Source: Natrialba chahannaoensis JCM 10990 (lineage in GTDB: Archaea; Halobacteriota; Halobacteria; Halobacteriales; Natrialbaceae). Taken from it: a stretch of 48,313 nucleotides of DNA. The notes below the pieces were generated by a model. The model saw only the letters and a program-made list of their open reading frames with translations. It made no database searches and had not been told where the DNA came from. Positions 45,166 to 47,371 of this stretch are shown one piece after another; positions within the stretch are counted from its first letter, which is position 1, and the number at the start of each line of letters is the position of its first letter. A program made the translations under genes and the position numbers. The stretch is taken from contig NZ_AOIN01000077.1 in assembly GCF_000337135.1 (NCBI RefSeq), positions 1 to 48,313 of the forward strand, written 5' to 3'.

Positions 45166-45478
45166 CCGGGAGCTGCTCACTGGTGTTTCACACCGTTGCT
45201 GTGTGACTTTCGTCCCACCCGCCACCCGTTCGACGGACGGGTCTGGCGTTCAGACTCCCTTCTGTCCTGTTTGATCGATTGCTGGTGCTCGCTCAGACAA
45301 TGGGCTGTCCGTCCCATTCCCCACCACCCACCCCACCCCCAACGCCAGCCGTGACGATCACTCGACTGCTTACTTGGGGACGTACTCGAGTTCACCCTTC
45401 GATACCCAGCCTCCACTACCCGCAATCCACTCAGTCAGCGCGATCGAGGTCGCCTCCGTCGTGATCACTTCGCATCTG

Positions 45479-45588
45479 ATACTGTCGGACAGAAGTCAGT
45501 GAGAAGTCGGTCGAAAAGTCGCGGCCGTTCCCGAAGGTGACGGCCGCAGTAGCGCGCCCAATCTTCGAATAGTTCTGTCCGGCAGTAT
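45479..45588. mobile_element. 110-bp MITE-like element with inverted ends
   Basis: ATACTGTCGGACAGAA (45479-45494) is matched at the other end by TTCTGTCCGGCAGTAT (45573-45588), 15 of 16 positions being complementary. Inside, GCGGCCG (45521-45527) pairs with CGGCCGC (45541-45547). Each end is itself palindromic around CTGTC/GACAG. No transposase is inside and no clear target-site duplication is visible. It may be a MITE or a large regulatory palindrome. Confidence 0.5.
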
Positions 45589-45821
45589 GAATGCACGAGG
45601 AATGGGTGCCAGATTGAACTCGAGTACAGCCGCGAATTCGTGCCGACTCTCGCTGCGTTTGGCTCCCGTACTCGGGTGAGTTTTCCGCATATCTATCAGA
45701 AAGCGCGTATTCTTCAGGCCCCGGTAACCTGCTATACTCCGCTTTATTTCTGAACAGATATGTGAACTGACGGACCCACATTGGGACATACTGTATCTCA
45801 ATTTGTAGGTGTTTGGGGACG

Positions 45822-45900
45822 CTTATCTCAACTAATGTCTCTGTAACCGCCGCATTATGGGTGACAGAGATGGAGATAAACTCACTTAGCTCTACTAATG
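45822..45900. promoter_or_regulatory. nested inverted and direct repeats upstream of the recombinase pair
   Basis: Two near-identical words, CTTATCTCAACTAATG (45822-45837) and CTTAGCTCTACTAATG (45885-45900), lie 63 bp apart. Between and overlapping them are two perfect inverted pairs: TTATCTC/GAGATAA (45823-45829 and 45873-45879) and TCTCTGT/ACAGAGA (45838-45844 and 45864-45870). The position before the DUF5805-like gene suggests an operator or recombination site. Confidence 0.5.
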
Positions 45901-45936
45901 GGAACCTTGAATATCACGGCGATTGAGGGGTGCTGT

Positions 45937-46329
45937 ATGAGCGACTCTGCGGACACCTCTCGGAAGTCTGTCAAAGCGTACGTCCCGGCGTATCAGAAAG
46001 CAGAATGGCAATCACACGCCGACGAACTCGACATGAGCCAGAGCGAGTTTGTTCGGACGATGGTACAAGCCGGCCGAAAGGGGTTCGAACCCATCTCAGA
46101 GGAACCCACTTCTCAGGGGTCAGACCCTGGGGGTAACGCCCTCGAAACACAGGTCCTTAATTTACTCTCGTCTGACACGTATTCGTGGGACGAGCTCCTG
46201 GACGCGGTCAGCGAAGATATAGAATCGCGACTTGATGACACACTCGAGCAGCTTCAGTCTGACAACCGAATTCGATACAGTGGTCGCCATGGCGGATACA
46301 CGACGACTGGTGATAGCGATGGCAACTGA
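45937..46329 (+). CDS. DUF5805-like small protein upstream of recombinase
   Basis: This 130-residue protein begins MSDSADTSRKSVKAYVPAYQKAEWQSHADELDMSQSEFVRTMVQAG, which resembles a ribbon-helix-helix DNA-binding start. A Gly/Ser/Pro linker follows, and then a winged-helix-like C-terminal part ending DTLEQLQSDNRIRYSGRHGGYTTTG. From memory this is DUF5805, commonly encoded just before tyrosine recombinases in haloarchaea. It overlaps the recombinase start by 11 bases. A role as regulator or accessory factor for the recombinase is likely. Confidence 0.85.
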   Translation: MSDSADTSRKSVKAYVPAYQKAEWQSHADELDMSQSEFVRTMVQAGRKGFEPISEEPTSQGSDPGGNALETQVLNLLSSDTYSWDELLDAVSEDIESRLDDTLEQLQSDNRIRYSGRHGGYTTTGDSDGN

Positions 46330-47371
46330 CGCGACCGGACAGGTCGAGGACATCGACGACCCGATCGCCTACTTTCTCGACGACCAGCGCTATCACGGCA
46401 AGAGCGAACGGACGCTCGAAGCCTACGAGCGAGTTCTTCGACAGTTTGAGGCCTTCCTCGGCCAGGAGTTTGGCTCCGTGGAGGCGATTTCCGACGCGGA
46501 TCGACGGGCCTGCATGGCCTGGATTCACTCCCTGCGCGGCGAGTTCGAATCGAGCACGATTGCTACCTACGCCTCCTATCTCAACCGATTCTACGACTAT
46601 ATGAACCGCGTCGGCGCGTTCGAGGAGAACCCGATGGCGCTCGTCATGGAGGAACTGTCCGAATCCATCGACACAAACCCGACCAGACGAGAGCTCTCTA
46701 TCGACGAAATGCGGTCGTTCGTCGCCTCGATCTCCCACCCGCTAGAGCGCGCTGTCGTCGTCACACTGCTAAAGACCGGGATGCGTGTCGGTGAGCTCTG
46801 TAATCTCGACTTGCGGGATCTCAACGCTGACGTTGAGGCCGTTGCACTCGAGTGGACGCCGCGCGTCGAACTCGACCGCCGACCCTCGTCGGTGTACGTC
46901 TCCGATGAACCCTCCCGCGGCGCGGTCACGAACGGGGAGGTGCGGACGGCGTCGAACAAGCGAAAGCGTGAGACGGTGATTCCCGTTGACGACGAGTTGC
47001 GAACGGAACTCGAGTCCTGGCTCGCGATTCGGCCGGATGCAGTTTCGCCCGCAGAGCCGTTGTTTCTCGACACCAGAGACTCGTGGGGTGAACGCCTTAC
47101 GCCCTCAGACGTTCGTTATATCGTCGAAAAACACGCCCGTGAGCACGGCTGGTACCGGACTGGTGGGGGGACGACCGAGAACGTCACACCACACTACTTC
47201 CGGCACTTCTTCACCACTCATCTCCGGGACCGAACGGGTGATCGGGGGACTGTACAGTACCTCCGGGGTGACGTCGCAGGTGACGTGATCGATACGTACA
47301 CTCACAACTGGGGAGATCGGGTTCGAGAGACGTATCTGGACCATATTTACTCAATATCACTGCTAGAATAG
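46319..47371 (+). CDS. tyrosine recombinase/integrase (XerA-like)
   Basis: This 350-residue site-specific recombinase has an N-terminal SAM-like core-binding domain (about 13-105: YHGKSERTLEAYERVLRQFEAFL). The catalytic domain includes Arg156 in TGMRVGEL, the basic KRKRETVIPV, His292-x-x-Arg295 in PHYFRHFF, and the nucleophile Tyr327 in DTYTHNW. The ATG at 46319 overlaps the preceding stop; an in-frame ATG at 46289 would add ten residues. It resembles archaeal Xer-type integrases, but no tRNA attachment site is seen nearby, so mobility is unproven. Confidence 0.93.
   Translation: MATDATGQVEDIDDPIAYFLDDQRYHGKSERTLEAYERVLRQFEAFLGQEFGSVEAISDADRRACMAWIHSLRGEFESSTIATYASYLNRFYDYMNRVGAFEENPMALVMEELSESIDTNPTRRELSIDEMRSFVASISHPLERAVVVTLLKTGMRVGELCNLDLRDLNADVEAVALEWTPRVELDRRPSSVYVSDEPSRGAVTNGEVRTASNKRKRETVIPVDDELRTELESWLAIRPDAVSPAEPLFLDTRDSWGERLTPSDVRYIVEKHAREHGWYRTGGGTTENVTPHYFRHFFTTHLRDRTGDRGTVQYLRGDVAGDVIDTYTHNWGDRVRETYLDHIYSISLLE

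Follow-up and report, generated by a model that had tools for sequence, protein, structure and literature searches.

A short inverted-repeat element with a 3-bp TNA target duplication in Natrialba chahannaoensis, probably a MITE of a multi-copy haloarchaeal family

The window analyzed here, i.e. the whole 48,313-nucleotide stretch of contig NZ_AOIN01000077.1 from Natrialba chahannaoensis JCM 10990, contains a 108-bp element at positions 45480-45587. Its G+C content is 57%, against 61% for the window. Just downstream lie a DUF5805 frame (45898-46329) and a tyrosine recombinase frame (46232-47371), the former overlapping the beginning of the latter. The recombinase frame matched Phage_integrase in a profile search (E 4.7e-17), in agreement with the adjoining recombinase proposed in the initial annotation of this DNA. 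This recombinase is not needed to explain the element.

The inverted arms at 45479-45494 and 45573-45588 pair at 15/16 positions, exactly as first annotated. Such a pair (at least 15/16 matches, spacer of 0 to 78) occurs once in the window and was found in none of 20 mononucleotide shuffles. With at most 3 mismatches allowed, the window contains the end sequence twice, compared with an expectation of 0.21. The initial annotation gave a size of 110 bp. Comparison of copies retained the inverted element and moved its borders one base inward on each side, the outermost A and T of the earlier count being target bases. The element is thus bounded by two TGA copies of the target (45477-45479 and 45588-45590), as indicated by identical TNA flanks over the copies and by the single triplet in empty sites of two congeners. 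The left terminal inverted repeat, TACTGTCGGACAGAA, covers 15 bp on the plus strand (45480-45494), with one mismatch to the right end, and includes the 11-bp near-palindrome CTGTCGGACAG (45482-45492, plus strand). It is followed by the subterminal motif GTCAGTGA (45495-45502, plus strand). The right terminal inverted repeat (45573-45587) reads TACTGCCGGACAGAA on the minus strand and is preceded by the B-end subterminal motif. These terminal features are conserved in an alignment of 84 copies. Inside the element, the perfect inverted pair reported as 7 bp is present and is in fact 8 bp long (45521-45528 with 45540-45547). Taken alone, the window could be thought to hold a chance inverted repeat in gene-poor DNA, but in addition to the shuffles the existence of homologous copies refutes this reading, to which we give a negligible weight.

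Copies of the element were searched in the own genome. BLAST gave 38 places at E <=10, many of which were fragments or matches of the palindrome to itself. When BLAST was combined with an end-pattern search and with reading of the flanks, 13 family loci were obtained (on contigs C77, which is the window, C8, C60, C46, C59, C14, C61, C44, C98, C34, C41, C78 and C96); this count excludes a match of 33 bases on C80. Both ends are present at 12 of the 13 loci, C34 displaying a single end, and 10 of the 12 two-ended copies have identical TNA flanks, the exceptions being C44 and C61. The genome search for the ends that had been suggested at the outset therefore revealed a multi-copy family. Apparent tandem copies were also observed at G000:C14:4539-4724 and G000:C61:19093-19278. 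Because an N stands at each joint, these are probably scaffold-gap artefacts at repeats, and the differing flanks of the C61 copy perhaps have the same assembly-gap cause. The repeat thus appears to break draft assemblies.

The element enters TNA, mostly TCA or TGA, which is duplicated as 3 bp. Identical TNA triplets were found on both sides of 53 of the 85 distinct copies of 104-110 bp, and were absent from the other 32. Both flanks were TNA in 61 copies, and the middle base was shared in 53 of these against 20.3 expected (P 6e-18). Reconstruction of the target over 68 copies gave BTNAV; its middle base is C or G in 78%, and position -2 hardly ever holds A. Similar behavior was observed in 0.80 Mb of the copy-rich genome G098, where identical TNA flanks were present in 13/13 elements of 108 bp, 9/15 of 107 bp, 2/2 of 106 bp, 5/7 of 78 bp, 2/2 of 75 bp and 0/1 of 76 bp. 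Elements of other lengths had such flanks in 6/27 cases, and many of them resemble chance or broken pairs. Ten scrambled-end controls on the same 0.80 Mb gave 0 pairs each. Judged from these sequences, the flanking triplet is a true target duplication, since the middle base of the TNA varies and yet matches from left to right, and since empty sites hold a single triplet. A target duplication of fixed length, as is usual for MITEs, is therefore seen here as a 3-bp TNA (missing in the 32/85 copies mentioned above). At L014:1501-1503 and at L018:1520-1522, a neighboring open frame uses the duplicated TGA as its stop codon.

Empty sites were assayed by searching the joined flanks of the 12 own copies against seven genomes of the genus, the own genome included. 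At the window site, Natrialba magadii (G045) has the element in place, with flank matches 106 bp apart. Two other congeners, G046 and G044, gave an unbroken match through the junction (81% identity) with no element, and the letters show a single triplet, TGA in G046 and TGG in G044. These three genomes were among the matches listed for the window site; G042, G043 and G047 were not among them. The C60 site has a single TCA and no element in G046 and G044, and is occupied in G045. The C96 site is occupied in G044 and has TTA, with no element, in G046. For the C78 copy, the comparison with relatives gave no readable empty site, other genes being found there. Comparison with relatives, as the initial annotation had recommended, thus yielded a clean empty window site in two congeners, and insertion polymorphism of the kind expected for MITEs is seen at the window, C60 and C96 sites. 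Read most simply, the element entered the window site before the own species and G045 diverged, and no such insertion took place in G046 and G044. The empty site could in principle result instead from precise loss. A single copy, conserved in place in relatives and without a transposase partner, had been named as the finding that would speak against mobility. The first part fails, the position is shared with one congener and empty in two, and a partner was not found.

Among 125 genomes of the own family, 54 gave a match (E <=0.001, own genome included). In a class-wide search with another copy, L057, as query, 53 of 391 genomes matched at E <=1e-4; 48 belong to the own family and 5 to other families. 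For the latter, G197 and G329 contain elements of 78-79 bp whose ends are the same and whose TNA flanks are identical at 3 of 4 loci, and G164 displays related ends. No element was seen at the matching loci inspected in G126 and G234. A Halobellus ramosii plasmid carries a version of 79 bp that is flanked by TCA on each side. In Natrialba magadii (G045), a further copy lies in plasmid NC_013923.1, where the gene table, which is incomplete, has nothing annotated at that copy. In G098 the exact end was found 302 times, and its reversed control never. Thus, the family is dispersed in many copies in the own genome, in family genomes and in G098, like a MITE. In a viral collection, the end 15-mer gave 43 matches, which are probably due to chance; a 23-mer gave 0 matches.

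Alignment of 84 of the 85 copies (L183 opened gaps and was left out) indicated that the whole element forms one covarying stem of 36 pairs. In this stem, 92.3% of cells are paired, against at most 54.2% with slid partners. Double changes were found in 19 of the 36 pairs (116 cells), a level reached by 0 of 500 shuffles, these statistics being uncorrected for relatedness among copies. In the middle stem, helix 2, the left arm (45503-45514) pairs with 45554-45566 and 8/12 pairs show double changes. The inner stem, helix 3, pairs 45521-45529 with 45539-45547, shows double changes in 7/9 pairs, and has the perfect 8-bp pair as its core. RNAalifold, unaided, recovered 22 pairs, 11 of them with double changes. 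Folding of 12 elements as DNA, chosen from three size classes, gave z values between -3.6 and -10.8.

Strong covariation and a stable fold could also be expected from a functional RNA or terminator gene that is conserved and whose mobility is only apparent, and folding as RNA indeed gave a z of -7.2. This explanation would also fit the position of the copies: among the 68 copies with identical TNA flanks, the duplication coincides with the stop codon of a frame of at least 200 codons in 14, versus 52 of 1372 control sites, which include coding sites. However, a gene is not damaged when its TGA is duplicated, so that survival in neutral sites could give the same excess, which is perhaps what happened. 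When RNA from one strand is under selection, G.U pairs are expected to exceed A.C pairs. Here G.U was found in 91 cells and A.C in 101 (P 0.52), which favors a cause at the DNA level or one that is neutral to strand. Moreover, no Rfam family came near its cut-off (best 16.8 bits versus a cut-off of 55), and the target duplications and empty sites also argue against an RNA gene. We consider such a gene very improbable. Such covariation is no proof of selection in itself, as it can also arise from relatedness and from arm-to-arm correction. Maintenance of the hairpin at the DNA level rather than as the RNA of one strand is the weakest part of the MITE interpretation preferred here.

The family includes shorter forms. 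By eye, the 75-bp form corresponds to the 108-bp form without the inner stem. Of 13 interiors from 77-80-bp elements, 10 resembled the 108-bp interiors no more than the best of 20 shuffles did; the resemblance was clearly greater in L062 and L128, and slightly greater in one L203 copy. Since these interiors are mostly unrelated, the fold apparently outlasts the sequence, and it is the fold that persists where sequence mostly does not.

Solitary ends were also analyzed. The motif CTGTCSGACAG is its own inverse except for the middle base, and this 11-bp near-palindrome in each end makes the ends direct repeats as well as inverted ones. The exact sequence TACTGTCSGACAGTA was detected 17 times in 10 of 125 genomes, versus about 1 expected by arithmetic and 0 for the reversed control. 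When 15 solo palindromes were inspected, 3 lay between identical TCA flanks and 12 had no matching duplication. The former may be deletion scars, deletion between the two ends being plausible from this layout. Some solo palindromes may result from chance or other events.

Short palindromes in inverted orientation around a spacer recall the REPINs, which are described in PMC3116915 as two inverted palindromic units in one hairpin, with preferred sizes and with singlets as remnants, and are linked there to tyrosine (Y1) RAYT transposases; their helper is not recognizable by matching ends. The present element would then be a REPIN-like unit whose single-stranded DNA is mobilized by a Y1 transposase (IS200/IS605, RAYT-like) that is present as a single copy and lacks matching ends of its own. 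This would account for a spacer enclosed by a short palindrome and its inverted copy, for the whole-length hairpin, for the preferred sizes, for hundreds of ends in one genome, for the singlets, and for an autonomous copy and a helper with matching ends not having been found. The duplication stands against it, with the middle base matched in 53/61 and one triplet in empty sites. REPINs are not known to make a target duplication, nor is the IS200/IS605 pathway. The 3-bp duplication of the present element points to a DDE enzyme, whereas REPINs point to Y1. A REPIN-like unit is thus an improbable explanation, and the element is better described as a non-autonomous DNA transposon.

A partner transposase with matching ends was not found in the listed matches or in the stretches examined, many of the genomes being drafts. 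End pairs at about 0.3-6 kb included no autonomous element among the matches listed for G045, G056, G038, G058 and G072, for most of G071 and G089, and for part of G103 and G106, nor among about 100 of the 302 end places listed for G098. Several candidates were rejected. The long pairs G038 C5 and G098 C2 are two MITEs with genes between them, and L163 is a lone end beside unrelated genes. The 8 long pairs in the 0.80 Mb of G098 each hold one or two short elements with their own ends plus long frames, which were read by eye as housekeeping genes. A scan of fetched sequence totalling 2.16 Mb, in which overlapping parts count double, revealed two long pairs, each consisting of two MITEs.

Transposases were searched with the DDE_Tnp_1 profile alone. 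Comparison by eye of its 121 places in G045, G056 and G071 with the ends listed gave none with these ends, as did a check of the borders of 17 places in G071; none of the 25 places in G098, G106 and G118 lies inside these ends. DDE_Tnp_1 elements with readable borders have other ends and mostly 5-10-bp duplications. The claim of a MITE moved by a transposase elsewhere is thus sustained for the MITE, through the copies, the 3-bp duplication and the empty sites; for the partner, none was found, and we infer the existence, the class and the trans action of the enzyme. A frame in G106 (L225:1120-2256) encodes a DDE_Tnp_1 protein of 378 aa for which no clear element ends were seen; it is possibly a solo transposase.

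Duplication of a 3-bp TNA target is known for the IS1031 group of the IS5 family and for PIF/Harbinger. The same duplication in the present element therefore suggests an IS5/IS1031- or PIF/Harbinger-like enzyme; the element differs from these systems in that no transposase was found here. Its TACTG ends are not known to be typical of either group. ERIC and Correia elements have a target different from TNA. In the description given in PMC10969869, such prokaryotic MITEs are short, multi-copy elements with inverted ends, a target duplication and a stem-loop, and MITEs are typically AT-rich. The present element is likewise short and multi-copy, with inverted ends, a target duplication and a stem-loop, and at 108 bp it is too short to encode a transposase. 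It differs in its 57% G+C, its near-palindromic ends and the partner IS that was not found.

The small mobile repeats of Haloquadratum walsbyi are also comparable, by their description only. As reported in the relevant parts of PMC3119063, SMR-A is about 110 bp and SMR-B (HqIRS41) 80 bp, both have ends unlike any known transposon, copies are many, and their mobilization is termed "enigmatic". The same parts report no target duplications for these repeats, SMR-A aiming at palindromes near the termini of PATEs and IS605-type elements, and list IS605-type elements as causing no target duplication. With SMR-A and SMR-B, the present element shares a haloarchaeal host, a similar size (108 bp), prominent inverted ends, unrelated to those of the transposons examined here, and many copies. 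In contrast to SMR-A as published, it displays a clear 3-bp TNA duplication. The resemblance is thus strong in form, and membership fails on the target duplication as published. The end sequence, in four spellings, was absent from open-licence literature except for single occurrences in two human cancer papers. As far as these searches show, the MITE family is unreported in the searched literature on haloarchaeal MITEs and small mobile repeats.

Altogether, dispersal in many copies, the 3-bp duplication, the empty sites of congeners, near-constant lengths and hairpin covariation support the MITE reading at the sequence level. As a whole explanation, a non-autonomous DNA transposon (MITE) with a DDE-type transposase in trans, a TNA target and a hairpin kept at the DNA level has, in our estimate, a probability of about 0.88. 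In this mechanism, the transposase would bind both 15-bp ends, and the 108-bp unit would enter TNA (consensus BTSAV) through a 3-bp staggered cut, which would duplicate the TNA. The hairpin would be kept as DNA, either as a cruciform or hairpin during replication or through arm-to-arm template correction. Deletion between the direct-repeat ends would leave a solo 15-bp palindrome between two target copies. Such a copy-rich family makes it testable how haloarchaeal small mobile repeats move, with exact borders, a target rule and empty sites now available, as well as a host, G098, whose scanned part holds about 50 copies per Mb. Hairpin covariation, together with unrelated interiors, suggests that the fold and not the sequence is maintained, which in our judgement is unusually clear for a MITE. 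If a helper is never found, this would be a MITE family with a missing parent.

A second family, with ends TACGGWYTRCTGTA, was uncovered as nested elements in two 191-bp copies. The fetched sequence contains 89 of its elements of 76-82 bp, 57 of them with identical TNA flanks. Examples are L178:6993-7072, L179:1207-1286 and L059:2337-2416, and another one lies in Natrialba hulunbeirensis (L254:872-951). In 35 copies of modal length, 15 of 26 hairpin pairs display double changes, this count having no shuffle control. Subterminal motifs of the GTCA and ACKATT type appear, by eye, to be common to both families. The two families differ in their ends but have TNA targets and a hairpin form in common. 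Tentatively, they could be read as parts of a haloarchaeal superfamily of obligate-hairpin MITEs, although we regard this as rather doubtful. In that reading, two or more types of ends (TACTGYCGGACAG and TACGGWYTRCTGTA) and several interiors unrelated to one another would go with TA..TA termini, TNA targets, a whole-length covarying hairpin and preferred sizes near 75-80 and 107-108 bp, and all of them would depend on a single transposase, perhaps a solo one lacking matching ends, with a DNA hairpin as its required substrate. If true, this would also solve the mobilization of the Haloquadratum small mobile repeats.

Elements of the second family are sometimes nested with those of the first. 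Two longer copies, L129:2308-2469 (162 bp) and L141:2525-2673 (149 bp), contain an extra insert with GATGCCCAGC near the central hairpin. Finally, a 192-bp copy (L181:818-1009) carries another short insert, with TTCTATAG-like ends.
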